Virus record (IMG/VR): IMGVR_UViG_3300032285_000968
Coordinates: 1-38,778 of that record
Direction: 5' to 3' (one strand)
Source of the DNA: a virus
Length of the DNA: 38,778 bases
Shown here: positions 8,463 to 38,340 of the stretch, piece by piece
Layout: each line of letters starts with the position of its first letter
How positions within the stretch are numbered: the first letter of the stretch is position 1
Position numbers and translations under genes: made by a program
Notes under the pieces: generated by a model
Database searches by the model: none
What the model was told of the DNA's origin: nothing
The model's input: the letters and a program-made list of their open reading frames with translations, nothing else

Positions 8463-8714
8463 ATGGAAGGGAAAAAGATTCCACGTATCATACGTAAAGT
8501 AGATGGGCAACATAGGCGTCAACACTTTAACGACAAAATACTGATAGTCTCTGAGCATATCGCTCAAGAGCGTCTTGGTATTTGTAAAACATGTACATCT
8601 TTTGAAGATTTTGGATGCACAGTGACTGGGTTTTTCATGCCCGTTACTGTTAAACAAAAATCACAACAATGCCCATATGGAAAGTGGAGCACAAACTATA
8701 CTGTCGAGGAGTAA
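8463..8714 (+). CDS. Small cysteine protein, degenerate zinc-ribbon-like (CxxC...C...CPxGKW)
   Basis: An 83-residue protein; the start at 8463 is fixed by AAGGAG at 8451-8456, six bases upstream. It is basic at the N-terminus (KKIPRIIRK, RR) and has C41, C44, C52 and C70, ending 'CPYGKW'. Marine phages and bacteria encode many small proteins with the pattern CxxC-x(n)-CxxCGCxM..K...CPxGKW, thought to bind zinc. Here the middle knuckle is reduced to 'CTVTGFFM', leaving four cysteines. The function is unknown; a structural or partner role for the neighbouring enzymes is possible. It lies between an oxygenase and a DUF6065-like gene, with one base to the latter. Confidence 0.65.
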   Translation: MEGKKIPRIIRKVDGQHRRQHFNDKILIVSEHIAQERLGICKTCTSFEDFGCTVTGFFMPVTVKQKSQQCPYGKWSTNYTVEE

Positions 8715-8715
8715 A

Positions 8716-17741: not shown

Positions 17742-18322
17742 TGTCTAGCGATATACAATGGGTTGGGTCTATTCCAATAGCCAGATCATTCTGGAAGGAA
17801 TTCGATCAGCATAAGAATGCTATTGTAGATCTATGCCTACGGCAAGAAAAAACAAACGTTATAGAATCAAACATTGCAGTAGATTTAAAACAAAATATGT
17901 GGGAATCAAATTTTAATTTTTTGTCACAGCCAAGTCTAACTGAACTTAATACATGGATGCATTCCGTAACTTCTGATTTTGTCAGTAATGTTAACAACAA
18001 ATCCCACAGGATTGCAATAACAGAAAGCTGGGCTCATGTTACTAGACCTTCGGGATATCATGGACCGCACAGGCATCCGTGGTCAACCTGGAGTGGGATT
18101 TTTTATGTTTATGCAGACGATCCGTCAGTTGCCAACAACACATTCCTTAATCAATTCAATATGCCTGTGATTCCTGGGTATGAATTTTTCGAAGAAGAGA
18201 TGCAGATAGAATTTAAAGCAGGGTCACTCGTGATTTTCCCAAGTACAATGTTGCATTACGCAAAACCATACTTGGGAAATGATAAGAGAATAGTTATTAG
18301 TTTTAACAGTGTCTGTCTTTAA
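17741..18322 (+). CDS. 2OG-Fe(II) oxygenase-like protein (PF13759/TIGR02466 type, HxH)
   Basis: A 193-residue protein and the last gene of the rightward unit. 'ESWAHVTRPSGYHGPHRHPW' (95-114) includes H110-R-H112; 'SGIFYVYADD' (118-127) follows; 'GSLVIFPSTMLHYAKPYLG' (161-179) carries H172 and R183 follows in 'KRIVISFNS'. The G-I-x-F-x-DP strand is replaced by a longer 'NTFLNQFNMP' loop, so it is the most divergent HxH member. The stop codon TAA at 18320-18322 abuts the stop of the converging tail gene with no space for a terminator. Confidence 0.75.
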   Translation: MSSDIQWVGSIPIARSFWKEFDQHKNAIVDLCLRQEKTNVIESNIAVDLKQNMWESNFNFLSQPSLTELNTWMHSVTSDFVSNVNNKSHRIAITESWAHVTRPSGYHGPHRHPWSTWSGIFYVYADDPSVANNTFLNQFNMPVIPGYEFFEEEMQIEFKAGSLVIFPSTMLHYAKPYLGNDKRIVISFNSVCL

Positions 18323-19922: not shown

Positions 19923-19923
19923 G

Positions 19924-21426
19924 TTATTTGTACTCGTAAACTAGGCAAATTCCGGTATAACCATCTGAACCGTTATGGTTTCCTGCACCACCCGGACCGC
20001 CGCCACCCGGGGCTGCGACTGGGTTAAATCCGTGGCTTCCATGTCGACCTTGTCCTCCGCCACCAAAGAAACTTGCGCCACCTTGGCCAGAACCACCAGA
20101 GCCTTGGTTGTTATAGTTTCCTAGATGTCCGCCGCCACCACCACCATATAGATTAAATTGTCCGCCGGAACCTACTCCACCGTGTCCGCCTGCGTGACTG
20201 CGGTTCTGATTAGCACCGTAGCCGCCAGTGGCTGAACAGTATGATCCAAAAGATGTTGTACCGCCTTGGCTTCCAAATCCAAAATAGTAACCGCCACCAG
20301 TTCCGCTACCCACTGTGACACTCACTGTCGATATCTGTGAAGCGTCGATCCATCGTTCGCAGAATCCGCCAGCGCCTCCTGATTCGTGGTAGCCTCGGCC
20401 GCCGCCGCCACCTCCAACACAGATAACTCGGATCATTCTTACATCCGAACCGCTCTTGGTGTATGTGTTGTTACCAGTGTAACTGTAGAGATTCTTTAAT
20501 GTTCCGGTAAAGTTGCTGTCGATATATGATTTTACAGCGTTTTCTGTCGCTAATTGTGCAAAATCAGTTGATAAGCTGGTACTAGTCGTTACACTAGTCA
20601 CTGGGGTATTACCACCGCGTATCCATAATTTCACATGGCTGATATAGAATGCTTCGTCTGAAGCATCTTGGTTTAGATCTGTGTGATGCTTGACCTGTAT
20701 AGTAGATGCAGTGTGGCTGGTCCAATCTGTGGTTACTTGGAGATAACCGTCGTATAACTGATCTCGACCTTGTGGGTTATCAGTGCTTGGGTTTCCGTTC
20801 CAAGGAGCATAGGAATAATATTTGTTACCCCACCACGATAGTGTAGTATTGTTATAACTGGTTAGATTGCTAGGTGGAGCACTGTTAACCTTGGTCCAAC
20901 TGGCCATCTGCACATAACTGGCTGCATCGTTAGTCACGTACACTTGGTTAGCTTCGTTGTCCCATGAATCCACATGGTGTATATAACATTCATATTTTAT
21001 CTGGGTGTGGGCCGGAATGCCTGATAGCGATAGGATATAATCTCTAGGGCCAGCAGTCCAACCGTGTATGTAACAGTTGCCAAGACCTGCACAATCTGTC
21101 ATATTGTAATATGTGGCATCGTTCCAGTTGCCGATAGTTGCACGGCAATCAGCATCTTCGTTGTACCATATACGCTCACCTGCATTTAAGGTCAAACTAG
21201 TAAAATTAGCGTTGGTCGCTGTGTTAGTGGCGCCGCTTACAGATCCGCCAGTGATGCTAACACTGTTACTTTCTTGTCCAGCGACAGTTCCGATGATCTT
21301 AACCGGATTTCCGGAAGCATCACCTATGTTTACATTGTTATTTGTCGTAGTAACAGCAAGCTCTCCGCGGTTTAATGAACCTGCGCCGGGAGTTGTTGTT
21401 CCTGTTTTAAGTCTAATTACTGGCAT
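19924..21426 (-). CDS. Glycine-rich tail adhesin-like protein 2 with an extra beta-sandwich domain
   Basis: A 500-residue protein with the same attachment segment (MPVIRLKTGT...RGELAVTTTNNNVNIGDA) and the same glycine-rich end as its neighbours (about 330-500, ending 'GICLVYEYK'). Between them, residues about 85-275 form a domain the others lack. It contains 'HHVDSWDNEANQVYV' and 'HTDLNQDASDEAFYISHVKLWI', a pair of motifs ('DSWDNE' and 'QDASDE.... i....l.i') that I recognise from putative beta-sandwich domains of surface proteins in ciliates and some bacteria. A fibre tail 'LSTDFAQLATENAVKSYIDSNF' links the two domains. It may bind a surface ligand by this added domain. The start has only a weak AGG upstream; the gene stop and the adhesin 1 start are separated by a single base. 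Confidence 0.7.
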   Translation of the reverse strand: MPVIRLKTGTTTPGAGSLNRGELAVTTTNNNVNIGDASGNPVKIIGTVAGQESNSVSITGGSVSGATNTATNANFTSLTLNAGERIWYNEDADCRATIGNWNDATYYNMTDCAGLGNCYIHGWTAGPRDYILSLSGIPAHTQIKYECYIHHVDSWDNEANQVYVTNDAASYVQMASWTKVNSAPPSNLTSYNNTTLSWWGNKYYSYAPWNGNPSTDNPQGRDQLYDGYLQVTTDWTSHTASTIQVKHHTDLNQDASDEAFYISHVKLWIRGGNTPVTSVTTSTSLSTDFAQLATENAVKSYIDSNFTGTLKNLYSYTGNNTYTKSGSDVRMIRVICVGGGGGGRGYHESGGAGGFCERWIDASQISTVSVTVGSGTGGGYYFGFGSQGGTTSFGSYCSATGGYGANQNRSHAGGHGGVGSGGQFNLYGGGGGGHLGNYNNQGSGGSGQGGASFFGGGGQGRHGSHGFNPVAAPGGGGPGGAGNHNGSDGYTGICLVYEYK

Positions 21427-21432
21427 GTCATG

Positions 21433-22374
21433 TTACCTATATTCATATACTACACAAATTCCGTACATTCCATCGTATCCAGCAGAAAAACTACCGTTTC
21501 CATAGAAGTTATGACCACCTCCACCTGAACCTGGTGCCGCAACGTTCTGCGCAAATCGTTCAGTGTAGTGAGATCCTGCGTTTCCGCCGCCAAAGAAGCT
21601 CTGCCCGCCGTGTCCAGGATTATGATGGCTCGAACTGTGTGCATTCTGATGCCCTGATCCGCCGCCGCCATGTGTATTAACGTTTCCGCCATATCCTACG
21701 CCGCCGTGGCCACCGCAATGTTGATAGTTGGCATTTGCGCCAGATCCACCACCTGCAGAGCAATATCCACCAAAGCTAGTGGTGTTGCCGCCGCCACTGA
21801 ATCCAAAATATTGGCCACCACCACCGCCACCACCTACTGTTACTGAAACTGTAGTGATACCTGTAGCATCGAGCACTAGTTCCGACATGCCGCCTGCACC
21901 GCCGGCTTCTCCGTAGCCGCGACCGCCGCCGCCTGCTCCAACACAGATGACTTTCAGACGTATCACATCAGTTCCGCTTTTAGTATAAGTTCCTGAACTG
22001 GTAAATGTGATGATGTTTTTTAGGCCGCCTTTCTTACTGGAGATATAACTGGCCACAGCATTTTGATTTGGTACTAGGTTGTTGCTAGCGCCCAATGATG
22101 TGCTAGTTGAAACACCTGTTATCGTCTGGCCGCTGTTCAACTGCAAATTAGATGTAGCTACTGTTCCACTTGTGATAGGCGTTGCACTAATAGATCCTCC
22201 AGTGATACTGACAGCATTGCTGTCCTGACTGGCTAAAGATCCTCCGATTGTTTGTACACCGCCGTTACCAAGATATAACTTTGCATCGGCGATATTTACG
22301 GCTAGTTCGCCTGTTGCAAGAGAACTAGGAACAGAGCTTGCAGTTGTGGATCTTTTTAATCTAATTTTTGGCAT
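21433..22374 (-). CDS. Glycine-rich tail adhesin-like protein 3
   Basis: A 313-residue protein with attachment segment 'MPKIRLKRSTTASSVPSSLATGELAVNIADAKLYLGN', a linker 'STSLGASNNLVPNQNAVASYISSKKGGL' (the 'vPtQ.Av..YI' element of fibres), and a glycine-rich domain from about residue 135 ('ICVGAGGGGRGYGEAGGAGG', 'SVTVGGGGGGGQYFGFSGGG', 'GGGSGANANYQHCGGHGG') ending 'GICVVYEYR'. GGAG (22383-22380) lies five bases before the ATG at 22374. It is the first of three tandem paralogues; glycine framework strands are conserved and the loop tips vary. Probably a trimeric or monomeric receptor-binding tip, by analogy. Confidence 0.7.
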   Translation of the reverse strand: MPKIRLKRSTTASSVPSSLATGELAVNIADAKLYLGNGGVQTIGGSLASQDSNAVSITGGSISATPITSGTVATSNLQLNSGQTITGVSTSTSLGASNNLVPNQNAVASYISSKKGGLKNIITFTSSGTYTKSGTDVIRLKVICVGAGGGGRGYGEAGGAGGMSELVLDATGITTVSVTVGGGGGGGQYFGFSGGGNTTSFGGYCSAGGGSGANANYQHCGGHGGVGYGGNVNTHGGGGSGHQNAHSSSHHNPGHGGQSFFGGGNAGSHYTERFAQNVAAPGSGGGGHNFYGNGSFSAGYDGMYGICVVYEYR

Positions 22375-23340: not shown

Positions 23341-26300
23341 TTAACGTTGTCCAAAGAATACTAAAGCTACTGGTGCTCCATCTATTCCGCCTGTAAAGTT
23401 CATCTTTGATGTAACTTGTATCGCATTGCCGGCAGTATTATAGATTTGGTCATTTTGAATCTTAATCTGTCCAGCGGTCAGTGTATTTACGTTCAATGCA
23501 CTCTGTCCGCCACCAATTTGAGCTGTAATATAGCTCTTGATAGCTTTCTGTGTTGGCAGAATGTTATCGCTGTTAGCAACGAAGAACGGATCTGTCGAGA
23601 AGCTAGTAATCGTAGCAGAGTTTACACCTAAGTTAACCGAGTTCAAAGTCAAGCTCTGTAGACCTGCTAGGTTAAACGCACTAGCGTTCAATGTAGCAGT
23701 ACCAGTTGACTGCTGAACTCCGAACAAGTTACCAACGTTGAAGTTACCGTCTTGGTCAGTACTTGTAAAGAACACACGACCTCCACCTGTTTGATATTGC
23801 TGATTAGCTTGTATAGCATTTCCAGCAACTACATACGGATAGTTAGTTTGTGTTTGATTACCAGTACCGATATACAAGAAGTCGTGTCCTGTTAGACGTA
23901 CTTGACTGTATTTCAATCGTGTAGTAATCAGTGTACCATGTACAGGAGCATTCAATGTAGTCAAACTTGGGTTGATCGTGAATGTTGCTGTGTAGTAATT
24001 GTTACCTGTTCCTGGTTGGATCAACTGGCTAGCATTTGTAGAAACTAGCTTGTACCACTGATTAGCACCAGTAATTGTAGCAAATTGTACGTTTGCACCA
24101 GCTGAAGGCAATCCAGTGTATGTGCTGACAAAGTTGACGTTGATTGTGCTACTTGTATTTTGATACAAATCGCTATATCCGTCGCCTAATGTTGTTGCTG
24201 TAGCAGTAGTATTATTAGTACCACGTGTTGCAAAACTTGGGTTGCCTAATGCGCCATCGCCCAAACGAGCACGTAATCCAACGTCTATCACGTGATTCGG
24301 ATCGAATACTCTGACCACAGGACCAGCTCGATAAATCATACCAGACGGTGTTGTTGTGCTTAGTGTTACTGGTGTAGTTCCTCCAGGTGTTGCAGTTACT
24401 TGGAAAGTTCCTGCTGGAGCACTGGTTACAGTTACACTTGAACCGATCACATAGTAAGTTGTGTTAACAGTTAGTCCGCTAGTAGTTACAGTATTAAATT
24501 CAATTGGCTGATTGTTAGCAGTACTTGTGCTTAATCCTGTGATGTCATCCGCTGTAATAACGTTTGTACTAGTCGTTGTTGCAGTAACGTTACCTTTTGG
24601 ATATCCGCTTCCTGGTTCAACTAAGCGCACTTCAATCACGCTGTTGCTTGCTACCTTGACACGACCTAGTGTTCTAGCACCAGTCCTAATGCTGTTGGCC
24701 ACAGTTCCAGCTGTACCACTTACTGCTACGAATAGCGGAACAGCTCCTAGTGTTACACTGGCTTGTGGATTACCGAATGCTATACCAGTCCAGCTAGTGT
24801 AGCTTGGCAGTGTGCGAGCAGTCCAGTTAATACCGTCCCAGCTTGTGGCACAGACGTTAGTACCTGTTTTGCTAGTCCAAGAACCTGTATCGCTAATCAC
24901 TGATGTGATCGGACTTAATGTTGGGCTAGAGCTTAGTGTAATGTTATTGCCACTGATGCTTGCGATATAGTATGTAGAACCCGATGTTAAGTTTCCTAAC
25001 ACTGCTCCAGATACTAGAGTCCAGCTACCTGCTGAATTAGTTAATGCAAAATTGCTTGTACCACCATATGCAGTAACTATGCTTATCTGTGTACTGCTTA
25101 TTACTTCTGATACAAAGTAAGTTACACCGTTAGTGATACCGCCAAATGTTCCGCCAGCCACAGTAGTCCATGCTCCATTACCGTTGCCGGGATTGAATAC
25201 ACTGCCACCATAGCTTGTGCTAATAGTGATTTGATTAGCACCAGCTGTTGGATTGATAATGTAGTATGTTGCACCGCTAGACAAGTTGCCATACGTTGCA
25301 CCTGCTACGAATGTCCAAGCACCATTTGCACCTGCTGTTACTGTAACAGATCCAGTTCCATATGATGTGTACAATGTGATATTGTTTCCGCTCGGTGCAC
25401 CTGCTAGATAATAAGTAACACCGCTTGTGATTCCGCCAAATACAGCACCTGCTGTTACGCTTACTGATTGACTTGATGTAGTCGATAATGTAAAATCGCT
25501 GGTTGCTGTGTTAGTAGTTCCAACAGCCAGTGTATTACCAATAATCTTAGTGATATAATACACTGAACTTGATAACAAGTTACCAACGTTAGTTCCTACT
25601 TGGAATGATTCGCCTACCAACATACCTGTTGTGTTACTTACAGTAATTATGTTACCAGTAAATGTTAATGTTGCAGGACTTCCTGAACTTGCAACTGTCT
25701 GCGAAACACTTACAGCATATGTACCTTGCTGGCCTGGAGTATAGAAACTATAATTTCCAGCGGCCTGCTGTGTAAGTGTAACTGCGGCACCAGCGGCATT
25801 TGCTAATGGCACTGTTGTACTAGATGTGACATATGTCGGGCCAACGTATGTTCCGTTAGGAACACCGGTACCACTTATTAGTTGTCCAATAGCAATACCA
25901 GTTCCGTTGTTAACAACAAAAGTACTAGTTCCTGAACTGCCTCCGCTAGAGTAACTTGGAGTGACTGAAGCTGTGTTAGTTGCTGTTAGCTGTGTAGTAA
26001 TATAAGTTCCAGCTGTTGTGGTTGAACCAGATACGACCATACCGTTTACAATGCTAGCACTTGGTGCAAACATCATAGTTAAAGTAGTACCAGCAATGTA
26101 ACTAGTACCGCTTGCTGTTGAATTAGTAGTAGCTGTTAGTGTTGTTGCCTGTGTAACGGCTGTGAATACAATGCTCTCTCCTGAAACAAGTCCTGTACTA
26201 CTGCTTAATGTAAAGGCATTGCCAGCAGTAGTTGCCGCTGTTAAAGTACCAGTCTGTGTCACTGCTGTGAACACGATTGGTTCGCCAGCTGACATACCAG

Positions 26301-29300
26301 TGTTCGAACCTACAGTAATTAAATTACCTGTACTTGATACTGCTGTTGCTGTAGTTGTCTGTGTCACTGCTGTGAACACGATTGGTTCGCCTATAGTCAT
26401 ACCAGTTGTAGAATTAACTGTGATAATATCACCTGTTGATGTGATAGGAGTAGCAGTTATATTCTGACTAGAACTTACTGTATAGCTTACACCACCTATC
26501 GCACTACTTGCGATAGTGCCTAAGGTCTGGCTAATAGTCCAAGTACTGCTTGAACCAGATACGATATAAGCACTGAACGCACCGCTGATAGCTGTGCTTG
26601 GAACTAAAGTTGTTGTATTAACAGTATATGCTGAACCTGTAATAGTCTGACCTGTAATAGTCTGACTTGGGGTTACGTTGTAAGTACCTTGTACACCTGC
26701 GGCAACCGATGTATATGTACCGGATGCTTGTGTATGGAATGGTTGACTTACAGTAATCACAGCGCCTACAACGTTTGTAATATAAGTGTTATTAAACAAA
26801 CCAGTACCAGTAATCAACTGTCCTACAGCAAATCCTGAACCAGAAGCTAATGTCACTGCTGTTGCAGCCGGAGCACCGCCTGATGAGTATGCTTGGCTAC
26901 CTAGTGTGCCAGCAGTGCCTGTAACTTGGGTAACAATAAATGTACCTGCTGTTGTTGTCCCACCGCTGATTACCATACCAGGAATAAATGAACCACTTGC
27001 CGGAGCACTAGTCATAGTCAATACTATTGGCGTAGCAGTTGTACAAGTTGCTGTTTGGCTGATGCTTACATACCATGTGCTACTTGCACTAGTAGGAGTA
27101 CCAGTAATGTTAGATACAATAACTGTACCAGCTGTAACTGTACCACCGCTTAGTACGTATCCTGGTTGTATGCTACCACTGTTAGCAGACACAGTAAGAA
27201 TGTTGCCTGAAATGTTACCTGTAATAGTTTGTCCAGAACCCGGAGCGATACCTGCATTAGTTGATGCACTAGTAGCAGTTACAGTTCCAGTAATATAAGT
27301 GGCATAGTTGGTAATACCTGTTCCGCTTAATTGTTCGTTAGTCTGTATTGCTGTTGCACTACCTACACTGTAAGAACCGGTTAATGTAAGAATACCAGTT
27401 TGTACTCCACTTGGCCAGTAGTTGGCAAGAATGTAACCAGTTCCATTTGTAAATGCTGTACCGGTTAGTGATTGTCCAATAGCAACTGTTCCTGTTGGGG
27501 TTCCAATAGTTAATGTACTACCACTGATGCTCGATCCTGTAGAAGTAAAACTGTTGCTAGCTGTAATATAAGTTCCAGCAGTTACACCAGAACCAGTTAA
27601 CTGCTGTCCTACAACTACTTGTCCTGTCTGAGGAATAGCTGTAAAGACTGTGCCTGCATTACCACTAGTACCATTAGATATAAATGATGTACTTGCGTTA
27701 ACGGCTACTGTATGAGCTGCCAAACTAGATGTTCCGGTTTGTGTCACTTGTGTTGGCACAATGCTATTACCTACGTTCAATCCAGCAGTGCTACTTAGTG
27801 TTACTAAGTTAGTACCCGAAGCTGTTGCTGTAATAGTAGGAGTCGGCATGTTAGCTACTGCAACAAACTGTCCTTCTCCGTATGCCACTGATTTCCATTG
27901 TTGTGTAGTTGGAAGTCCTGATGCATATGTTCCGTTTACGCCCGACTTGTTGCTTGCTAGTGTCCAGTTAGTACCATTATTCAAACTGTATGCAACATAA
28001 GTTCCGTTAGAAGATACTGCCAAGAATCGTCCGTTACCGTAAGTTACGTTAGTCCATGCAGTTGCTACGCTCGGTAATGATCCGCCAGCTGTAAATGTCG
28101 CACCGCCGTTGCTTGATACAACGGTTGAAGTGCCGCCGTTTTGTACAGCAACAAAAAATCCGTTACCATAAGCAACACTTGCCCAGTATCCTGAGCTGAT
28201 GTTTCCGCTAGTGATAGTAGAAGCAACCCATGTAACGCCATCAGTGCTCTTAGAAATTGTACCTGCTGTAGATACAAGTCCGCCCACTGCTACGAATACA
28301 CCGCCGCCATATGCAAGAGATTTAAAGTTTTGGTTAGTACTGTTATTAGTAACACTGCTTGACCATGCACTTGACAAACCAGCAGTAGTTGAGTAGGCAG
28401 AAGTAGTAGAACTACCAGATATCGCTACCCACTTAGCATTGCTATCAGTGATAGTTACTGTTGGAGTTGCAGTATATCCATAACCCGAAACAGCCAGAGT
28501 CAATGCACTAACGCCATAGTTAGTTAACGTGATACCAGTTCCAACACTTGCCTGTGTAGCCACGTAAGTAAATTGAGCACTGCCCAATGTTACATTGGTT
28601 AGAGTTGTTGAATTTGCATAATCAAATGTTGGTGTTCCGCTATATGTACCAGATCCTGCACATAGATAAATTCTACCTGCGGCTGTCTGATAATAAGTTC
28701 CACTTGTTACTGCTCCTCCTGGAGTATAAGACGTTGGAGTTAGTCCTTGTGGCTGGCTAATAGTTATTGTTGGAGTGCTGAAATAATTTTTACCCCAGCT
28801 GTTCATTGTAATACCAGAAACAATGCTAGTAACTGCTGTTACGACAGGAGCATTTACACCCGTAGTATATCCGCTACCGTTAATGCTCATAGTTACAGCA
28901 ACAATAGTTCCATTTAGTACTTGGCACGTTGCTGTCGCACCAGTACCAAATCCAGACGGAGCTACAATGTTGATTGTTGGAGGTGTTGTGTAGTTATATC
29001 CACCATTAAGAATTGTAATGCTTACGATCTGTGAAGCACTAGAACCAGTTCCAACCACCGCTTGTAGTACTGCGCCGGTTCCTCCTAAACCACCGATTAG
29101 AGCGGTAGCTACGGCACCTGAACCGCCACCATATACAACTCCTACCCAGTTTTCTGTTGAACCTGGCAGTGCGCCACCTGCGGCCCACGTTTTACCATCA
29201 GTGCCTAGTGCAGTACCTGTACCGCCTGTTGCGATAGAAACATAATATCCATCGCCGTACACTACAGATCCATAAGTACCTGTTCCAAGTGCAGGCAATG

Positions 29301-32300
29301 TTCTTGCTGTTGCATTGAAACCCGGTTCAGTGTAAGAAATCCTTGGTTCAATAGTATAAGTTGTTGTTAAGTCTGTTGTATTTGTATAAACGGCTGTTAG
29401 ACCAGATCCAGTTGTGTTACCTGGAACTACGTGATCCCAACCTGCGGCAAACAATCCTGTTCCTACAGTACCAGTTATACTTAGACCCGATTGTGTAGTT
29501 GTGATAGCAACTACTGGGCCGCCTGGTACTAAACTAACTGAGAAGCTAGCAGTACTTAGATTTAATGCTGAAACATAATAAACTGTTCCTGCATCTAATC
29601 CGTTAAAACTAGAAGCAAATGTAATTGCCTTACCAGCTGTTAAAGTATTAGTAGCAGTAATTAGATTATTAGTAATTGCTGTTGCAGTTACAGTTACAGT
29701 GCTTGCCGCACCGCCAGCCAATGTCACAGCATTTGTACCATCAGAACTTAATGTAAATTGTGTTGGTGTCAATGCTATTACATAATACAAAGATGCTGCC
29801 GATAGATTATCAAAAGCCGCATTTAAGTAGATTGGCATGTTTAGATACATGCTAGCTGTACTTGTAGTTGTTAATAAGTTTACAGTACCACCGATAGCTG
29901 TCGATGACTGAGACACAGACTGACTAATAGTCCATGTAGATCCGCTACCGCTACCGCTTAGGTTAGAAACAATATATGTTCCTGCTGGAATTGCTCCACC
30001 GCTAATTATGGCTCCTGGAACAATCGTACCGCTTGAAACTGTACCGATAGTTAGGGTTGTACCGCTAATGCTCGAACCAGTTGTAGCAAAAGTTGCTCTA
30101 GTAGAAGCTGATACCATTAATGGTGCAAAACTGTCTTTAACAACTGTACAAATCTTAGTACCGTTTACGTTTGTTAAAATGTTTGCATATTGTCCAACAC
30201 CAGTACCACCTGTTAATGTGATTCTCATGTTGTTGTAGGCATTTGTCAAGGCAGCATCTGTTGCTGCCAATGTGAAGAATCCTAGAGTGCTAGCCTGTCC
30301 AGTGTTACTTGCTGTTACATAGCTTGTACCACCTACGCTAGAATTACTTACAGTGCCAGTATCGATGATTCGTGTTTCAAAAACGCTTGCGTTTCTAAAT
30401 TCATCCGAGGTAATTGTTGGTGGAACACCGGATGCACTGACCGAGAACACAGTATTAGAATAAGAACTACCAGCGTTGCCGTATTCTAAACGCAATACTT
30501 GGTTTGTAGTATCTGTCAATACTGATGTGATCTGTGCCTGTGCCGCACGGTTGTTGATGTTACAGAATATAGGAGTTTCAGTAGTATCAGTACCTTCTGC
30601 TACGACTCCGTATGTACCATAAGAACTGTTACCGTTAGTAGCACGTATACGTCCACCTAGCTCTGCCATATATCCAGCATAACTGTAGTAGTTGAACACT
30701 GAAACAAGTTCTGACAGTGAATTAGCACCAGTAGTCATCCAACCAATGCCGTCGCCGATAATACAAGTGTAATCGTTGGACACCATAGAACGGTAACCGC
30801 CGGCATGTAATGCTCCGTCGACTTTAGCACCATAACATGCATAACCAAACATTGTGCAGTTTTGTACATAGCATGAACGGCCATATACCCATGCGTTACT
30901 GTCGTTTGGTCCAAATCCTGGATCAAGACTAGTAAATGCGCCGCCTGTTGGACGTTTTGTTCCGTAGGCTAGGCTCGAGTTTGTTAGATAACCTTTTAGA
31001 CCGTTCATAGTCATGTTGCGGATACCGCAACTGTTACGAACTAGCCACATATCCGAACCCGAAGAGCCATTAATTGCGTTCAATAATACTTGAGCCGCTC
31101 TTAAGCTTCTGTAATTTCCAGTGTACTGCAAGTCATAAATGATAGCATTTAGGAAATAATTTATATCGCTCTGTGTATCCGGATTCTGATAATAGTATGC
31201 TACGCTCATAGAACCAGAAGAAGCTGTTAATGTTACATTTGGATACACTGTTCCAGTATTGGTGTTTAGATAACCTTCAGCTGTTGTAATTGTAAACGTT
31301 GTAGTAGATGAAACACTAGAAACATAATATAACGATGTGTTGTTTATTCCACCGAACAATCCGCCCGCAACTGCTGTAACACCAGTAATACTAGGCTGTG
31401 TAGCAAAAGAAATCGCTGTGCCGCCAATAGTAGATGCAACTGTTAAGCTAGTACCGCTAGCAGTTTTTACATAATATGCATTGCCTGATGTTACTCCGCC
31501 GCCTGATCCTGTTCCAACGTTTGCCGAGAACACGATTGGCATTCCTGCAACAATTCCTGCTGGCATCGAAGCACTAGTTGTAATAGTAGTTCCAGTGCAA
31601 CTTGCTATAGAAATAGTATAAGGTGTATAGCTAAATTTTACAGGATCGTTTACGTTTAGATTGTGCGGAGCACTTGTTGTAAATTCTCCGGTAGTTGAAC
31701 TTGTTACTGTATAGGTGTAAGTATTTGCGTAATATGCTGTTGTCTCTGCAAGCAAGAATGGTATATTTGCACGTAATATTTCAACACCCTTGGCAATTCC
31801 AAGATTGTTGTTATATGTGATAGTACCATTAACTTCAGGAGTTAGCGAACTTTGTCCTTTGTTCAACATATTGATTACAATATTTGTTGATGTAACAACG
31901 CTAGCTGCCTGTGTTGAATAAGAACTAATGCTTGCAGTTATTAGTGTCTGCAAATAATTTAATGAAGCAATAGTTGCTTGTTTTTCGTAACCTAATACTT
32001 GATAATCCTGAGTTCTGTTGTATGCCCTACCAGCAGTAACGCTAGCAAAATTACTACCTAACAGCATGTCATACATTGCCGCTGTAGTAACTTTAACAAC
32101 ATCGCGTTGAACATAAGTTGAATTGTATGTCAACGCTGGATAAGTTGTGTTAACATATGTGTTTACTTGTGCTTGATAACTGTTAGAAGTTGTTAATACA
32201 AATGTCAATCCAGTTAGCGATCCAGTAACTGTTGTAATAGCTGAGCCGCCTGAAGTAGCAGATAATGTAAAGGTTGAAGAACCATTTGTTCCTACAACAT

Positions 32301-35300
32301 AATAAGTTGTTGGGCTAGAATAGCCAACTAAATTTCCGTTACCAATCAATGTTCCGCTTACAGTGATAGTATTACCATAACCTATAGTTATACCTGCACT
32401 AGTGAGGCTAGTACAACTAAATGTACCGCTAGTTCCAGTTATAGTCAATGCGGCTAATGTTGTAGCAGTAGTAGTACCAACTAGTGAAGCACTTACTGTA
32501 TTAAATGCTGTCAGGCTGCTAGAGTTAGTCCAACCTAGATATGGCATATTAATAGTTTGTAGAGGAATCGATAAACCAGTTCCGTTCGTAAATGTTGCTA
32601 CAGTACCATTGTAACTAGTCGACAATTGGAATTGTGTAGTTGTTAGTCCTGAACTTAGAACATAGTAAATCTGGCCAGAACCGATAACTGTGCTTGACAA
32701 TCCATTAGCAGTTGTCTGTGGTATTACGATATCGCCTGCTACTAGACCGTGTACTGAATTGCCAATAGTAACAGTATTATTACTGCTGTATGATGCAGAA
32801 GTAAATGTGATAGCTACACCTAGATAAGCGTTAGTTAACGAAGATGCTAGGGTTACAGTTGTAGAACTTGTAGTAGTTGCCGCAACATAGTATGTTGTGC
32901 TAACAGCTAGACCACCACTTGTTGAAATACTTGCGCCAGTTGTGATAGGTGTACCTTGCACATAACTTGCCGCTGTACCTAATGTTACATTAACACCAGC
33001 CGCTGTAGCAGTAATAGTGTTTGAAGTAGTGCCAATTGTAAAAGTGTTTCCACTAGCAATAGTTGTAGCAGTTACAATAGGAGCACCATTAGTTAATCCG
33101 TTAGTAACATATCCTAATACTACTGTCATCAATGTATTGAAACGGCCTGCATCTCTGGTAGAACCAACAGATCCAGATGCAGTTGGCAATACTTGTGCAA
33201 CAGATCCTAATGGAGTTGCTACTGCTGTTCCTACAATAACTTGCTGTGCAATAGTGCTGATATAGTTAAGCGCATTAATAAATGCTGTAGACAAACCGCT
33301 AGCAATCTGCGTACCGTACAATGCAGAATAATAAGCCATACCTGCTTCTTGAGATTGCCAGTTACCACCGTAAGTTAAATCATAGTGGATAGCATCTAGA
33401 ACATAGCCTGCATCTCTCTGTGTTTTAGCCACTGAGTAATTAGGATTAGTTGTGATTGAGCTATAGTTAGTATTGATATAAGCGATAACTTCTGACAATA
33501 AGAACGCTCTGTTAGCTTCTAATAGTGCTACAGTTGCGCTGGCATCCGATACTGTTACTGAAAGAATTCCACCTGAACTTACTTGTGTCACATTAAGAAC
33601 GATATCGTTTGTAGAACGCTGTCCACCTATGCTATCTCCATATATACGGAGTTTACTGCTAGTTGTATAGCTTGCACCCGGTGTAGTTACTACGATATTG
33701 AATCCATAATATCCGTTGCCATTGCTGATTCTAGTAATAGTGAAAGCCGCTGTGCCGTCACCACCGCCTGTTACACTTGCGGCTGTCACACCAGTATAAG
33801 TTGCTAATGGTAACCCTTGTTGCGGCCAAATAACTTGCGTTGGTGCCGCGCCGTTTGTCAAATAATTATTGATATCGTCAATAGTTGCTTGTGTTTGTAT
33901 AACTGCTCCACTGGCTGCAATCATCTTCATCTTGTAATACATGAAGTTAATAGCGCCTAATGTTGGAGGAAGTTGTCCGCTTGCAGTTGAACGCAAGTTA
34001 GTAGCACTTGTATTGGCACGATTAAATGCTCTTCCTGCCTGTATAGCATTAAAGTTTGAACCATAAACCATGTCATAGTTCAATGCGTTTACAATCAGTA
34101 ATGCATCTCTATTGATAAGAGCTGAATTTGAAAATACTACTGACTGATAATATTTGCTGACCCACACTGTGGCATCGCTAGCAATATTAGTGTTTAGAGC
34201 TGCCACAGCATTATAAGCTGTCTGCAAGTCTGAAGCTTGTGCTCCGATGTACGATGATATCGCAGTGTCAGGAGTACCGTTAGTGATATAGTTGGCTACG
34301 TTATAGATGCGATCGAACAAGAATGCACCAGATGCCGCACTTCCTGCTGTTCCTGAACCATTGACAGTTAATGAATTTCCAGATTGTGCAGTGAATGAAG
34401 TCTTCTGTGCAATCTTAGAAACAATAGTTGCCATGTACTGGAACATCTGTACAAATCCAGCTTTTTCCGTAGTTAGGATCTGTAGTGCATTCAAGGAATA
34501 ATAGCTTGCGCCTGCTACTAATGATTGAGAATTTCCACCGTATGTTAAATCATAAAGTATGCTGTCTAGGATATAGCTGATATCTCTAGAACCTTTTGAT
34601 AAACCTACAGCACCTTCTGTTGAATATACCGCAGGATAATTGTTTGCTAGATATTGAAGTGTATCAGCAATAATAAATTGATAATTCTGTCTTACTTGTG
34701 TTAATGCATAGCTATAGCCAGTTGTGTTTCCTGTACTATTGGATACACCTTGGCTAGTAGTGCCATAGACAGCATTAGTTAACGATGCAGTGTTAAAACC
34801 AGTCGGTTGTGGCATAACTATCACTGGTTCATTGTTCAATCCGTTGGCTGCTAAACTGTAAAGTATATCAAAACTAGATTTTAAATTAGTGATAGCAGTA
34901 GCACTGCCAGTTGAAGCGGCCGGAAGACTTGTAACCTGTGCAACACTATTACCTGTGCTTGGTGTTATAGTAGTGTTTGACATCAAGTTTGGAATTAAAC
35001 TTCTAATCCTTGTCAAGGCTGCTTGTGATTTAGGAACAACTGTTGCCAGCTGTGGATCAGCCGCAAATGGTTGTACTACTGTAGAACGCAATTCGTCTCC
35101 AACGATTGCAGTAAAAGCCGGGACGTTGATTGGAAGGATTTCGTTGTAAGTTCCTGTCTTAACACTAATTGTAGTAGATGGATTGATTACCGCAGGAATG
35201 CTTACATTAGTCTGTGCGGTTAATGCGTTAGTCACTATAGTGATCAAATTCTGTACAGTAGATGCTGATCCAGATTCTGCTGTGTATAAATTATTAGTAA

Positions 35301-38300
35301 TCTGACTAGCCATCGAAGCTGAAGTAAATGTTCCGCCGTTATTCAATGTCTGATATAGCGAAGCTTGTTGGATCGCTGAATTAGAAAGAACACTCGGAAC
35401 AAGAGTTGTTTTCATAAAACTCAAACTTGCTACAAATGGATTGATATCGTAGCTGTAGACTCCACTAGTCAACGTTCCATTGCTGAAGAATGCATTAGTG
35501 TTTTTAGTTGTCTGGGAAGTTCCGCTGTGTGTTAGGTCAAAGTTTGCGCCTTCGATAATCAAGCCAGCATCTCTTTCTGCTTTACTTGAACTGTAAACAT
35601 ATGCACCAGTGTTTGCTGTTGATGTTGTAGTCAATAATACTACAGAACTGCTACCTTGTGTTGCTACTACAGTGAAGTGTGTAGAATCGATTACTTGATA
35701 GACATAATAAGTGCTTCCTGCTGTTACGCCACCTGCTGTTGCACTGAACACGATTGGCATGCCAACATACATATTAGCAGTAGTAGTCTGGAATGTTGTT
35801 CCTGAACCTGGTGTTCCTACTGTAAACTGGTTTGGTCTTGTTGGATCGCCGTTTACAGTTGTTCCTGTAATATTAAAAGTATAGTTATAAGTTACATATG
35901 CGGCTGTTTCTTTCATTATGAACTGTTTGTTCATAGATAATAGCATACCTGAATTAGGGTTTAAGTATCCTGCTTCTACCTGTTGGCAAGCATATCTAAT
36001 GCTAGCCCAAGGTTTATCGATAGTAGTTCCTTGCCCGTTACCTGTAGTGTCTATACCGTTAGGTGCAACATATACGATGTTATTAATCTGGCCATAGTAC
36101 TGCCAAGCTGGTTGATTATTATTAACACGAAGAATTTGTCCGTCTGTTCCGATAGGTAGACGTGTTGGTCCAGTAGAACCATAGTAGAACATATCACCTT
36201 GTGTGGTTAATGTTGCTTGTTCAGTACCAGATGCCAGTAGGTTCCAGTAAGTTGCAGAAGTATCTGCATCTGGTCTATTTGCTAAACTGGCAGTGTGTGC
36301 GCTTACGCATACATAGGAGCTTGCTCCCCAAAATGTAACATCGCCTGCAACGTATGTTCCAGCATTATACCATGTTGTCGAGAATCCCGAAACAGTAATA
36401 CCAGTAATAACTGTGCTACCTACTGTCGAGATTGTGATAGTAGCATCGTTTGCTGGACTTATTCCACCCAATGAAGTACCATAGATCTTGATAGTTTCTG
36501 CGGCAGTGTAACCTGTACCACCGGTTGCTATTGCTACGGAATAAACAGTACCGGCTCTAGTAATGTTAAATGTTGCACCAGTTCCAGAAGATGTAGTGAT
36601 GCCAGCACGACCTGTAATAGTTGTAGTAGAAACTGTTTGAGTTTGGCTTACAGTCCATGTTGAGCCTGATCCAGAAACAATATATGTTCCTGGAAGTATT
36701 GTTCCTCCTGATAACTGCATACCCACTGTTATAGTGCCGCTTGCTAGAGTGCCTACAGCTAATGTAGTGCCAGTAATCGTCGAATTATTCATAACTGCTG
36801 GCACTAGAGTGACAGCAGAATATATTACGCTAGTTTGAGGATTGTACTTAATACCAGTGTTTAGTACAGTCCAATATGTAGCATTTGGTGGTGTTAAATT
36901 GCTAGGATTATCCAATATAGCAAGATAAGTGTATCCGCCTATGCGAACTACATCGCCTACTTTATATGTAGGAGATGCACTAACGGTATAATCATTTCGG
37001 AAATTAAAACCAGTTGTATAAATTTGCCAGTAGGCTGTTGCTGTGCTAGGAGTCTGTGGACTTGCACTTCCATTGTTTTGTACACAGGCATAGGTGTATC
37101 CGCCGTATGTAACAAGATCACCTACAACATAGTTATTAGCAGAGTTGTAAGTGTTCATAAATTCAAAACCACCTACAAACTGTGTAAACTTAGCTGAATC
37201 TAATGCTGTTCCTGAAGCAGTGTGTGCTTGTGTACAGATCCACAAATCTGCACCGTATCGAACGATATCGTTTACACGATATCTCATTGCGGCTGCGGTG
37301 ATAGTAACTTGAGAACCACTGCTTCCTACAGTCTGGCTTGGAGTAATAGTCCATGTACTGGCAGCGGTTCCTGTAGAACCGCTTCCTGTTAAGCTAGCAG
37401 TAACAGTAGTTCCTGATGCTAGGCCGCCGCCGCTGATAATTTGATTTGTAGAAAGTGTTCCACTGTTACTACTAGATGCTATTACGCTTAGTGTTAAAGT
37501 AGTTCCAGAAGTATAACCAGTCAATGTTGCACCAGAGCTCCATAGACCTAAATATGTGATACCTGCATTGAATACTGTCCATTTTCCTTGATCCTGTTCT
37601 AGTCCAAGGCTGTAAGTATTAGCACTAACGTGTGCGGCACTACAAACATATGTGAATCCACCATAGCTTACAATGTCATTAACTTTGTAACGAGTGTTGA
37701 TGGTCCAGGCACTATTATAACTGAAACTAGTTGCAAAAGTAGTCCATTTGCTAGAATCTGCTTCGAGACCTAGCTGACTTGTTCCAGCGACTGTTCCTAA
37801 TGTAGTTACAGCATAGCTGCCAGTTAAGGCAAATTGTACTTGAGAAGTAGTGCAAGCTGTTACCGTAAATGATCCGTTAATGTTATTAATAACACCAGTA
37901 GTCTGTGCAGGACTAAAACCGGCAGTGGTAATAGTTGCACCTACAAGGAACGGTTGTACTGCTTGGGTTGAAAATGTAATAGTAGCAACGCCGCCAGTAA
38001 CTGTAATACCTGTAGCTGTTATAGTAGCTGTAGAAGATGCGCTAGTATGTGCAGTTGTACACTGATACACATATCCGCCATATTGTACCAAATCGCCTAA
38101 TTGATAATATGTAGCATTAGACCATGCGCCGATCCATTTTGTTCCGTCAGCTACTATATTCCAACAAGTTGGATTAGCATTCAAGTCTGTAGCAAACAGC
38201 GAACTAGACGAATGACTTAAAACACAAATATATGTTTTACCGTTAACGGTTACAACGTCATCTACTGCGTAGGATGTACCGCTAGCGGTCCAGTTTCCTT

Positions 38301-38340
38301 GATAAACAAACTTAATCCTACCTAATTTATATTCTGCCAT
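23341..38340 (-). CDS. Giant modular tail fibre protein (4999 residues)
   Basis: One uninterrupted reading frame of 5000 codons. Order of parts: residues 1-740, seven W/Y...GDxVxYGGxxYxC modules like CBM5/12; about 755-780, 'VAPNGIDTTGNGQGT' at the start of a beta-helix core; about 920-2410, six copies of a 'RDxxYxLDAIxYDLxYGGN' helical module; about 2430-2600, a beta-helix face ('RNMTMNGLKGYL', 'RSCYVQNCTMFGYACYG'); about 3020-4560, beta-propeller-like blades with a large insert; about 4670-4999, the tip usual in marine T4-like fibres ('GGRVFFTSTDQDGNFNVGNLF', 'ILPTQKAIKSYI'). Threonine, serine and glycine dominate and cysteine is rare. The protein should form a very long trimeric fibre for host binding. 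AGAAGG (38356-38351) and a late promoter motif precede the ATG. Relatives I recall are considerably shorter; the excess comes from inserted low-complexity modules. Confidence 0.9.
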   Translation of the reverse strand: MAEYKLGRIKFVYQGNWTASGTSYAVDDVVTVNGKTYICVLSHSSSSLFATDLNANPTCWNIVADGTKWIGAWSNATYYQLGDLVQYGGYVYQCTTAHTSASSTATITATGITVTGGVATITFSTQAVQPFLVGATITTAGFSPAQTTGVINNINGSFTVTACTTSQVQFALTGSYAVTTLGTVAGTSQLGLEADSSKWTTFATSFSYNSAWTINTRYKVNDIVSYGGFTYVCSAAHVSANTYSLGLEQDQGKWTVFNAGITYLGLWSSGATLTGYTSGTTLTLSVIASSSNSGTLSTNQIISGGGLASGTTVTASLTGSGSTGTAASTWTITPSQTVGSSGSQVTITAAAMRYRVNDIVRYGADLWICTQAHTASGTALDSAKFTQFVGGFEFMNTYNSANNYVVGDLVTYGGYTYACVQNNGSASPQTPSTATAYWQIYTTGFNFRNDYTVSASPTYKVGDVVRIGGYTYLAILDNPSNLTPPNATYWTVLNTGIKYNPQTSVIYSAVTLVPAVMNNSTITGTTLAVGTLASGTITVGMQLSGGTILPGTYIVSGSGSTWTVSQTQTVSTTTITGRAGITTSSGTGATFNITRAGTVYSVAIATGGTGYTAAETIKIYGTSLGGISPANDATITISTVGSTVITGITVSGFSTTWYNAGTYVAGDVTFWGASSYVCVSAHTASLANRPDADTSATYWNLLASGTEQATLTTQGDMFYYGSTGPTRLPIGTDGQILRVNNNQPAWQYYGQINNIVYVAPNGIDTTGNGQGTTIDKPWASIRYACQQVEAGYLNPNSGMLLSMNKQFIMKETAAYVTYNYTFNITGTTVNGDPTRPNQFTVGTPGSGTTFQTTTANMYVGMPIVFSATAGGVTAGSTYYVYQVIDSTHFTVVATQGSSSVVLLTTTSTANTGAYVYSSSKAERDAGLIIEGANFDLTHSGTSQTTKNTNAFFSNGTLTSGVYSYDINPFVASLSFMKTTLVPSVLSNSAIQQASLYQTLNNGGTFTSASMASQITNNLYTAESGSASTVQNLITIVTNALTAQTNVSIPAVINPSTTISVKTGTYNEILPINVPAFTAIVGDELRSTVVQPFAADPQLATVVPKSQAALTRIRSLIPNLMSNTTITPSTGNSVAQVTSLPAASTGSATAITNLKSSFDILYSLAANGLNNEPVIVMPQPTGFNTASLTNAVYGTTSQGVSNSTGNTTGYSYALTQVRQNYQFIIADTLQYLANNYPAVYSTEGAVGLSKGSRDISYILDSILYDLTYGGNSQSLVAGASYYSLNALQILTTEKAGFVQMFQYMATIVSKIAQKTSFTAQSGNSLTVNGSGTAGSAASGAFLFDRIYNVANYITNGTPDTAISSYIGAQASDLQTAYNAVAALNTNIASDATVWVSKYYQSVVFSNSALINRDALLIVNALNYDMVYGSNFNAIQAGRAFNRANTSATNLRSTASGQLPPTLGAINFMYYKMKMIAASGAVIQTQATIDDINNYLTNGAAPTQVIWPQQGLPLATYTGVTAASVTGGGDGTAAFTITRISNGNGYYGFNIVVTTPGASYTTSSKLRIYGDSIGGQRSTNDIVLNVTQVSSGGILSVTVSDASATVALLEANRAFLLSEVIAYINTNYSSITTNPNYSVAKTQRDAGYVLDAIHYDLTYGGNWQSQEAGMAYYSALYGTQIASGLSTAFINALNYISTIAQQVIVGTAVATPLGSVAQVLPTASGSVGSTRDAGRFNTLMTVVLGYVTNGLTNGAPIVTATTIASGNTFTIGTTSNTITATAAGVNVTLGTAASYVQGTPITTGASISTSGGLAVSTTYYVAATTTSSTTVTLASSLTNAYLGVAITFTSASYSSNNTVTIGNSVHGLVAGDIVIPQTTANGLSSTVIGSGQIYYVLSSGLTTTQFQLSTSYNGTVATFTNGTGLSIPLQTINMPYLGWTNSSSLTAFNTVSASLVGTTTATTLAALTITGTSGTFSCTSLTSAGITIGYGNTITVSGTLIGNGNLVGYSSPTTYYVVGTNGSSTFTLSATSGGSAITTVTGSLTGLTFVLTTSNSYQAQVNTYVNTTYPALTYNSTYVQRDVVKVTTAAMYDMLLGSNFASVTAGRAYNRTQDYQVLGYEKQATIASLNYLQTLITASISSYSTQAASVVTSTNIVINMLNKGQSSLTPEVNGTITYNNNLGIAKGVEILRANIPFLLAETTAYYANTYTYTVTSSTTGEFTTSAPHNLNVNDPVKFSYTPYTISIASCTGTTITTSASMPAGIVAGMPIVFSANVGTGSGGGVTSGNAYYVKTASGTSLTVASTIGGTAISFATQPSITGVTAVAGGLFGGINNTSLYYVSSVSSTTTFTITTAEGYLNTNTGTVYPNVTLTASSGSMSVAYYYQNPDTQSDINYFLNAIIYDLQYTGNYRSLRAAQVLLNAINGSSGSDMWLVRNSCGIRNMTMNGLKGYLTNSSLAYGTKRPTGGAFTSLDPGFGPNDSNAWVYGRSCYVQNCTMFGYACYGAKVDGALHAGGYRSMVSNDYTCIIGDGIGWMTTGANSLSELVSVFNYYSYAGYMAELGGRIRATNGNSSYGTYGVVAEGTDTTETPIFCNINNRAAQAQITSVLTDTTNQVLRLEYGNAGSSYSNTVFSVSASGVPPTITSDEFRNASVFETRIIDTGTVSNSSVGGTSYVTASNTGQASTLGFFTLAATDAALTNAYNNMRITLTGGTGVGQYANILTNVNGTKICTVVKDSFAPLMVSASTRATFATTGSSISGTTLTIGTVSSGTIVPGAIISGGAIPAGTYIVSNLSGSGSGSTWTISQSVSQSSTAIGGTVNLLTTTSTASMYLNMPIYLNAAFDNLSAASLYYVIALTPTQFTLSSDGTNAVTLAGGAASTVTVTATAITNNLITATNTLTAGKAITFASSFNGLDAGTVYYVSALNLSTASFSVSLVPGGPVVAITTTQSGLSITGTVGTGLFAAGWDHVVPGNTTGSGLTAVYTNTTDLTTTYTIEPRISYTEPGFNATARTLPALGTGTYGSVVYGDGYYVSIATGGTGTALGTDGKTWAAGGALPGSTENWVGVVYGGGSGAVATALIGGLGGTGAVLQAVVGTGSSASQIVSITILNGGYNYTTPPTINIVAPSGFGTGATATCQVLNGTIVAVTMSINGSGYTTGVNAPVVTAVTSIVSGITMNSWGKNYFSTPTITISQPQGLTPTSYTPGGAVTSGTYYQTAAGRIYLCAGSGTYSGTPTFDYANSTTLTNVTLGSAQFTYVATQASVGTGITLTNYGVSALTLAVSGYGYTATPTVTITDSNAKWVAISGSSTTSAYSTTAGLSSAWSSSVTNNSTNQNFKSLAYGGGVFVAVGGLVSTAGTISKSTDGVTWVASTITSGNISSGYWASVAYGNGFFVAVQNGGTSTVVSSNGGATFTAGGSLPSVATAWTNVTYGNGRFLAVSSNGTYVAYSLNNGTNWTLASNKSGVNGTYASGLPTTQQWKSVAYGEGQFVAVANMPTPTITATASGTNLVTLSSTAGLNVGNSIVPTQVTQTGTSSLAAHTVAVNASTSFISNGTSGNAGTVFTAIPQTGQVVVGQQLTGSGVTAGTYITASNSFTSTGSSISGSTLTIGTPTGTVAIGQSLTGTAFTNGTGYILANYWPSGVQTGILTLTGSYSVGSATAIQTNEQLSGTGITNYATYITGTVTATSASTNAGIAPGSGQTITGNISGNILTVSANSGSIQPGYVLSGGTVTAGTVIVSNITGTPTSASSTWYVSISQTATCTTATPIVLTMTSAPASGSFIPGMVISGGTTTAGTFIVTQVTGTAGTLGSQAYSSGGAPAATAVTLASGSGFAVGQLITGTGLFNNTYITNVVGAVITVSQPFHTQASGTYTSVAAGVQGTYNVTPSQTITGQTITGSAYTVNTTTLVPSTAISGAFSAYIVSGSSSTWTISQTLGTIASSAIGGVSYTVSSSQNITATPITSTGDIITVNSTTGMTIGEPIVFTAVTQTTTATAVSSTGNLITVGSNTGMSAGEPIVFTAVTQTGTLTAATTAGNAFTLSSSTGLVSGESIVFTAVTQATTLTATTNSTASGTSYIAGTTLTMMFAPSASIVNGMVVSGSTTTAGTYITTQLTATNTASVTPSYSSGGSSGTSTFVVNNGTGIAIGQLISGTGVPNGTYVGPTYVTSSTTVPLANAAGAAVTLTQQAAGNYSFYTPGQQGTYAVSVSQTVASSGSPATLTFTGNIITVSNTTGMLVGESFQVGTNVGNLLSSSVYYITKIIGNTLAVGTTNTATSDFTLSTTSSQSVSVTAGAVFGGITSGVTYYLAGAPSGNNITLYTSYGTGSVTVTAGANGAWTFVAGATYGNLSSGATYYIINPTAGANQITISTSYGGSVFNPGNGNGAWTTVAGGTFGGITNGVTYFVSEVISSTQISIVTAYGGTSNFALTNSAGSWTLVSGAVLGNLTSGSTYYIASISGNNITLSSSPTLSPITSVISDTGSWTSKTGTNVCATSWDGINWTARTLPSYTSWTGIAFGNPQASVTLGAVPLFVAVSGTAGTVANSIRTGARTLGRVKVASNSVIEVRLVEPGSGYPKGNVTATTTSTNVITADDITGLSTSTANNQPIEFNTVTTSGLTVNTTYYVIGSSVTVTSAPAGTFQVTATPGGTTPVTLSTTTPSGMIYRAGPVVRVFDPNHVIDVGLRARLGDGALGNPSFATRGTNNTTATATTLGDGYSDLYQNTSSTINVNFVSTYTGLPSAGANVQFATITGANQWYKLVSTNASQLIQPGTGNNYYTATFTINPSLTTLNAPVHGTLITTRLKYSQVRLTGHDFLYIGTGNQTQTNYPYVVAGNAIQANQQYQTGGGRVFFTSTDQDGNFNVGNLFGVQQSTGTATLNASAFNLAGLQSLTLNSVNLGVNSATITSFSTDPFFVANSDNILPTQKAIKSYITAQIGGGQSALNVNTLTAGQIKIQNDQIYNTAGNAIQVTSKMNFTGGIDGAPVALVFFGQR
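24865..27846 (-). other. Insert of about 990 low-complexity residues inside a propeller blade of the giant fibre
   Basis: The blade preceding it reads 'QQWKSVAYGEGQFVAVAN' (ending at about residue 3497) and the expected continuation 'NVCATSWDGINWTARTLP' appears only at about residue 4495. Between are Thr/Ser/Gly-rich repeats such as 'ITVxSxTGMxxGExIVFTAVTQT', 'GGTxxAGTxIVxxxxG' and 'xYYxxxxxGNNITLSxS'. The repeats carry no obvious Asp-box or glycine/histidine enzyme motif and look like stacked short beta-strand modules. Confidence 0.6.
26252..26391 (-). repeat. Exact 35-base direct repeat, period 105 bases
   Basis: Positions 26252-26286 and 26357-26391 are identical over 35 bases and start exactly 105 bases (35 codons) apart, within the inserted region of the giant fibre. 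They encode the shared GEPIVFTAVTQT segment. A further, diverged copy continues at about 26148-26181. Base-level identity shows recent tandem duplication of a 35-residue unit. Confidence 0.85.
31100..35590 (-). other. Six-copy helical module 'RDxxYxLDAIxYDLxYGGN' in the giant fibre
   Basis: Six related segments lie near residues 925, 1255, 1415, 1645, 2085 and 2390: ERDAGLIIEGANFDLTHSG, SRDISYILDSILYDLTYGG, NRDALLIVNALNYDMVYGS, QRDAGYVLDAIHYDLTYGG, QRDVVKVTTAAMYDMLLGS, QSDINYFLNAIIYDLQYTG. Each is followed by a stretch of about 40 residues with A-G-xxY/F and a helix, then Thr/Ser-rich spacers. They punctuate the beta-helix region and are also familiar from marine phage fibres. The copies are divergent, so duplication is old. 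Confidence 0.65.
36230..38330 (-). other. Seven CBM5/12-like modules at the N-terminus of the giant fibre
   Basis: Module anchors in order from the N-terminus: W17...Y24-AVDDVVTVNGKTYIC; WIGAWSNATYYQLGDLVQYGGYVYQC... ; NTRYKVNDIVSYGGFTYVC; MRYRVNDIVRYGADLWIC; NYVVGDLVTYGGYTYAC; TYKVGDVVRIGGYTYLA; GTYVAGDVTFWGASSYVC. Most then have AH and a W about 20 residues later. The pattern is that of chitin/cellulose-binding CBM5/12 modules and of similar modules in marine phage fibres. At the N-terminal end they may serve as virion-proximal shaft pieces rather than receptor binders. Modules 2, 4 and 7 contain low-complexity inserts. Confidence 0.65.

Follow-up and report, generated by a model that had tools for sequence, protein, structure and literature searches.

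Immunoglobulin-like (Ig-like) domains are small beta domains that occur in several classes of phage virion protein, namely tail fibre, baseplate, tail tube, capsid and Hoc (Fraser et al. 2006, via PMC9022992), and one of them sits between the core strands of a tail tube (PMC9022992). The nozzle protein gp17 of phage SU10 is a seven-bladed propeller with velcro closure that carries an inserted chain of Ig-like nozzle domains (PMC9509320). The tandem arrays of BACON domains in crAssphage are, according to those sections of the crAssphage study that deal with them, associated with the tail and grow through internal duplication of single domains together with horizontal transfer (PMC6949934). Tail fibres as a class are a hotspot of protein-fragment exchange in a survey based on ECOD domains (Smug et al. 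2023, PMC10684548), and in a search of its text neither propellers nor nested insertions came up. Here we describe a giant tail-fibre gene in the complete virus record IMGVR_UViG_3300032285_000968, all 38,778 bases of which were analysed and are referred to below as the window. One blade of a seven-bladed propeller in this fibre is split by 998 in-frame residues, and these are an insertion within the blade hairpin, not an inter-domain linker.

A propeller blade split by an in-frame insert

The propeller of the fibre comprises seven blade repeats, recognised from the sequence and from an alignment of relatives (A1), that start at residues 3022, 3065, 3338, 3386, 3429, 3482 and 4517. The gene and the parts of its propeller are laid out as follows.

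23341..38340, minus strand: giant tail-fibre gene, 4,999 residues, a single open frame by translation
29293..29319, minus strand: FNATARTLP (residues 3008-3016), first strand of the propeller, from the sequence and strand E16-21 of the L015 model
29149..29277, minus strand: blade 1 (residues 3022-3064), from alignment A1 and the L015 model
28330..29148, minus strand: blade 2 (residues 3065-3337), from alignment A1 and the L015 model
28186..28329, minus strand: blade 3 (residues 3338-3385), from the alignment
28057..28185, minus strand: blade 4 (residues 3386-3428), from the alignment
27898..28056, minus strand: blade 5 (residues 3429-3481), from the alignment
27847..27897, minus strand: first half of blade 6, strands a and b, WKSVAYGEGQFVAVANM (residues 3482-3498), from the alignment
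24853..27846, minus strand: in-frame insert of 998 residues (3499-4496), about 15 modules, from alignment to relatives
24793..24852, minus strand: second half of blade 6, strands c and d, CATSWDGINWTARTLPSYTS (residues 4497-4516), beginning CATSWDGINW, from the alignment
24652..24792, minus strand: blade 7 (residues 4517-4563), from the alignment

The first half of blade 6 thus ends at residue 3498 (position 27847) and the second begins at residue 4497 (position 24852), with 998 codons between them. Relatives were collected as 26 loci from scans of viral contigs with both flanks and a further 80 from a profile scan. The fibre family in the scan has at least 462 relatives, and the junction was counted in 94 distinct relatives among the matches listed. 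The two halves are contiguous, with at most 25 residues at the junction, in 88 of these, four lineages have 480, 993, 1,002 and 1,034 residues at the same blade-6 hairpin, and the remaining two have an ambiguous motif spacing of 48 and 65. In the uninterrupted relative L015 the junction reads WNQVSYGEGLFVAIA-PSSNI-CATSWDGINW. Inserts at the same residue come from contigs with different IMG sample identifiers (L002, L074 and L014/L021/L070), which, together with the contiguity of the blade in most relatives, shows that the insert is neither a chance feature nor a misassembly. The spacing of 1,002 belongs to L001, which with L005 represents a shorter contig (IMGVR_UViG_3300037189_002516) whose matched fibre stretches show 100% identity to those of the window and that, to judge from this identity, is probably the same virus or a near-identical one.

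The natural relative L015 was modelled with AlphaFold2 to stand in for the window protein minus its insert. The model of its domain (predicted local distance difference test score, pLDDT, 82.4; predicted template modelling score, pTM, 0.77) places the junction at the turn between strands 478-482 and 488-492, and its residues 14..544 match the seven-bladed virginiamycin B lyase 2z2n with a Z of 31.5 and a root-mean-square deviation of 2.2 A over 278 residues. The strand pattern is one of seven four-stranded blades, with the N- and C-terminal strands sharing a single blade so that the ring is closed; on the model, FNATARTLP is the probable velcro strand that completes blade 7. Since the model covers all of 2z2n, the ring is complete when the halves of blade 6 are contiguous, and it is strands b and c that flank the insert site. 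The contiguity of the halves in relatives and the complete ring of an uninterrupted relative together place the insertion inside the blade.

The original prediction, made from the window alone, had held that about 1000 residues lie within a single propeller blade, interrupting it instead of joining two domains, and both the contiguous homologues and the complete ring of L015 bear this out. Its coordinates, 24865-27846, were correct to within 12 bases of those given by the alignment, the blade repeats that it saw near residues 3030-3500 are real, and the second half of the blade and a further blade start do follow the insert. It had proposed alignment to shorter homologous fibres, in which the blade halves read through, and it would have given way had the halves never been contiguous in homologues or had they fallen into separate domains; homologues do have contiguous halves, and the model puts both in one domain, as blade 6.

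Blade 2 also holds an insert, a separate one of about 215 residues with repeats of the GGYxYTTPPTI type that lies between its first two strands and is present in every relative aligned. L019 is without a further stretch of about 60 residues that is nested inside this blade-2 insert.

What the insert consists of

The blade-6 insert is 21% threonine, 14% serine and 13.5% glycine, levels above those of the rest of the fibre. The description of it in the original prediction as repeats of these residues needs correction, since it is no simple repeat: Tandem Repeats Finder reports a single repeat, of 15 bp x2, in the whole window, and what fills the insert is a series of about 15 modules, each of 35-80 residues, that have diverged from one another. 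The full module map has 15 matches covering 789 of the 998 residues, with M2/M4-like modules in the N-terminal two thirds and M3-like modules, of the TYYI type, in the C-terminal third. To avoid circularity, module profiles were seeded with cassettes that lie at other sites of the family, and every insert was masked during training. With these masked profiles the window insert yields 7 M2 and 7 M3 modules, against 0 for 200 inserts shuffled locally, and module profile matches vanish in reversed and locally shuffled fibres. Comparison of the M1, M2 and M3 profiles by hhalign gives probabilities of only 1-28%, so a single module superfamily is not claimed; the M4 profile does pick up M2 and M3 modules.

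The insert has no significant match in Pfam, PHROG or NCBIfam, and in the same libraries the Ig-like, FN3, Big and BACON models match neither the insert nor the fibre. Profile matches of the modules to the PDB (for example neocarzinostatin and antibody light chains) have E values of 0.01-1 and are not significant. Nothing was returned by tblastn for the insert or for single modules against isolated-phage records, a search in which the low-complexity filter was in force, and no absence is claimed from it.

The array has left signs of how it was assembled, at two places in the window.

26113..26427, minus strand: tandem units of about 105 bp (35 residues), repeat families D3-D5
25702..25941, minus strand: module nested in a module, SGGSSGTSTFVV...TGTYVGPTYV, from the insert alignment, with an M4 match at E 1e-17

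The adjacent 105-bp units at 26218-26322 and 26323-26427 share 72% identity and are followed by another copy that has diverged further, so tandem duplication produced part of the array. In L074 the position of the nested module is taken by an uninterrupted M2 module. Over their full length the inserts of the window, L002 and L074 can be aligned, at 49-61% identity, and differ by the gain or loss of entire modules; the insert of L014 has the same two ends but is shorter. Between the window and L002, the differences at the three codon positions of the insert (0.33/0.25/0.54) follow the pattern of the flanks and divergence at four-fold sites is 0.50 in the insert against 0.46 and 0.53 in the flanks, which indicates that the insert is a constrained part of the protein. 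On these sequence comparisons it was probably already present in the common ancestor of the window and L002.

Modules at other sites of the fibre and in other virion proteins

A full-length alignment of 19 fibres contains 17 regions of at least 30 residues that are present in some fibres and absent in others, many of them 70-93 residues long, and blade 6 is accordingly not special as an insertion site. Six CBM_5_12 (PF02839) stretches occupy the N-terminus of the window fibre (91.6 bits in Pfam, against a gathering score of 26.2). Three other module sites in the window are these.

37789..38019, minus strand: M1 module (residues 108-184) embedded in a CBM_5_12 repeat, whose match to the Pfam profile breaks off beside the module at position 30 of 44
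37297..37536, minus strand: 80-residue stretch with an M2-like module (residues 269-348), found in the window only among the 19 aligned fibres
29890..30099, minus strand: 70-residue M2 cassette (residues 2748-2817), in some relatives and not in others

Two comparisons are the clearest. A 67-residue M2 cassette within a CBM5/12-like repeat is filled in L024/L026 and empty in L016 and L020, and a 75-residue M1 cassette within an M3-like module is filled in L007 and empty in L013. The flanks of the pairs L026/L020 and L007/L013 are 76-88% identical at the protein level, and at the DNA level both junctions join in frame, with no target-site duplication evident at either of the two. In L014/L070 the b-c hairpin of blade 7, equivalent to the blade-6 site, holds one M3 module of about 71 residues, and the window has no module there. 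Collectively, the empty and filled sites and the module profiles support the wider proposal of the original prediction, that repeat modules invade fibre loops in frame.

One module family also reaches beyond the fibre. M1 modules occur in 86 open reading frames (ORFs) of 80 scanned loci, and 75 of these ORFs have no detected similarity to the fibre outside the modules, and ten M1-bearing ORFs that were scanned include two tail sheaths, two virion structural proteins of the head class, a tail fiber protein, a gpJ-like tail fibre and a tail protein. The M1 modules of the tail sheath proteins lie at residues 570-638 and 319-384 in L159 (ORF 1294-5184) and at residues 329-396 in L172 (ORF 905-4498); they sit within or beside the matched sheath part, and the proteins are of 1,200-1,300 residues against the 915 positions of the family profile. 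It would be a larger and, in our estimation, unlikely step to suppose that M1-M4 form a cassette library shared by environmental phages, the members of which enter, in frame, the loops of virion proteins that are unrelated to one another (giant fibre, tail sheath, J-like fibre, head protein), and nest and build up arrays there through an undescribed recombination route that favours exact module boundaries.

How the array may have arisen

The explanation that we favour, and to which we give a probability of about 0.85, is that stable domains provide the fibre with a scaffold, the loops of which accept in-frame module cassettes, the blade-6 array being one case. The scaffold would consist of the CBM5/12 repeats and the seven-bladed propeller, and its exposed hairpins and loops would take in cassettes encoding small, probably beta-rich modules of about 60-90 residues. 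The b-c hairpin of blade 6 holds an array of such cassettes in the lineages of the window, L002, L074 and L014, and that of the window would have grown to about 15 modules and 998 residues by module duplication, insertion of module into module, and loss. The recombination route would most likely be illegitimate or short-homology exchange between phage genomes and, subsequently, between module copies. As a hairpin has its two ends next to each other, the propeller would be expected to close around the array all the same. Propellers have their b-c loops on one face, from which the array would then extend as a long side arm. Its role may be in adsorption (binding to the host surface) or in spacing, as the CBM5/12 repeats and the proposals made for phage Ig-like domains (PMC9022992) would suggest.

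Two findings weigh against this explanation. A model of the interrupted propeller of L014 (1,128 residues with a 480-residue insert) has a pLDDT below 40 over most of the insert and low confidence beyond it, the underlying alignment probably being shallow and misaligned around the insert. In addition, the carriers occupy two separate positions, window/L002 and L074/L014-L070, both in a tree of the C-terminal region and in one of the propeller without the insert, and for the C-terminal tree a topology that unites them in one clade is rejected (approximately unbiased test, p 0.00028), which excludes that the array was gained once and neither lost nor transferred afterwards. The window and L074 are 50% identical in the insert and 52% in the flank. 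Because the inserts are homologous and have diverged to the same degree as their flanks, the data fit an old transfer of the block as well as an old gain followed by several losses, but not the independent gain of one array on two occasions.

Among alternative histories, the one that survives best, at odds somewhat short of even, is that the insert moved as a block between fibre lineages through homologous recombination in the flanking propeller sequence, with one gain and one transfer. It would account for inserts at the same residue, with the same sequences at their ends (PTPT.T.T ... G[SA]W.S..G), in two non-sister clades, but the equal divergence of insert and flank between the clades means that any transfer must be old, and the propeller-based tree likewise requires two changes. 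More doubtful is the converse, that the array was there ancestrally and disappeared from most relatives through clean in-frame deletion, with no recent invasion of blade 6. The separation of the carriers on both trees is compatible with this, and inserts that are homologous throughout and diverged like their flanks are what would be expected of one old gain followed by losses. However, with 88 of the 94 listed relatives lacking the array, several losses that restored the hairpin would be needed, the filled state elsewhere is limited to small lineages (L024/L026 at the CBM5/12 site; the window only at residues 269-348), and the internal 105-bp tandem units show array growth.

That the insert is a mobile element (an intein, a homing-endonuclease element or a transposon) in the fibre gene is very improbable: insertion is exact, in frame and at one conserved residue, as such an element might be, but the reading was rejected because no Pfam, PHROG or NCBIfam match to an intein, endonuclease, transposase or reverse transcriptase exists in the fibre, the content is a module array that recurs in other virion proteins, and the two clean junctions read at other fibre sites have no evident target-site duplication. 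Equally hard to credit is an accidental resemblance to a single blade of halves that belong to separate domains, for which the distance between the halves speaks and nothing else; it is refuted by their contiguity in most listed relatives, and both serve as blade 6 in the ring of an uninterrupted homologue.

The fibre gene and its surroundings

The protein as a whole matches phrog_9851 (tail fiber protein) at E 8e-115, the best stretch being the C-terminal residues 4799-4941. The cyanophage-type fibres of this group (S-SSM7, S-CAM1, P-SSM2 and Mosig EXVC030M) resemble the window fibre in the C-terminal ~130-160 residues, at 45-54% identity. For the part of the propeller that precedes the insert, tblastn gives no match among 50,697 phage records. 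The closest named protein, found as a structural match of the L015 model in BFVD, is UniProt A0A6J7WHK8 of an uncultured Caudovirales phage, at 50% identity. Genes of the neck and tail-sheath type near the fibre point to a myovirus.

Just upstream of the giant fibre, a partial ORF (38387-38776, minus strand) matches the same C-terminal stretch of phrog_9851, so that a second, related fibre gene probably ends there. A tandem set of three paralogues, each with a glycine-rich C-terminal domain, occupies 18975-22374 on the minus strand, where the G+C content of the window is highest. Two of them have matches to phrog_863 (tail fiber assembly) and the other to Pfam Gly_rich_2, and all three are possibly adhesins. 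Beside the tail genes, a run of small genes (4227-18322, plus strand) includes several 2-oxoglutarate-Fe(II) (2OG-Fe(II)) oxygenases and three tryptophan halogenases (9474-10940, 10940-12442 and 13043-14632, plus strand), an unusually dense cluster of modification enzymes.

Comparison with known systems

Empty and filled sites that can be aligned within one giant fibre family make the growth of a fibre by in-frame domain capture readable event by event, from the loops that accept a cassette and the size of the unit to the expansion of arrays and nesting. That the modules lie outside the family libraries searched, and yet one family (M1) reaches tail sheath and head proteins, implies that annotation of the structural genes of environmental phages probably misses many.

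Like phage Ig-like domains, the fibre modules are small domains that occur across several classes of virion protein, but unlike them M1-M4 match no Pfam, PHROG or NCBIfam model, number about 15 in one hairpin, and nest (PMC9022992). The BACON arrays resemble the window array in being tail-associated domain arrays that grow; they are built from a different domain family, and in the sections of the crAssphage study that treat them interruption of another domain is not described (PMC6949934). A parallel in architecture, in another part of the virion, is SU10 gp17, likewise a seven-bladed phage tail propeller that carries inserted domains; there, however, the domains enter between blades 2 and 3, whereas the window insert splits a blade between two of its strands (PMC9509320). 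Domain insertion in phage proteins is thus already known, and what is new here is a blade split by about 15 unnamed modules, together with modules nested in one another.

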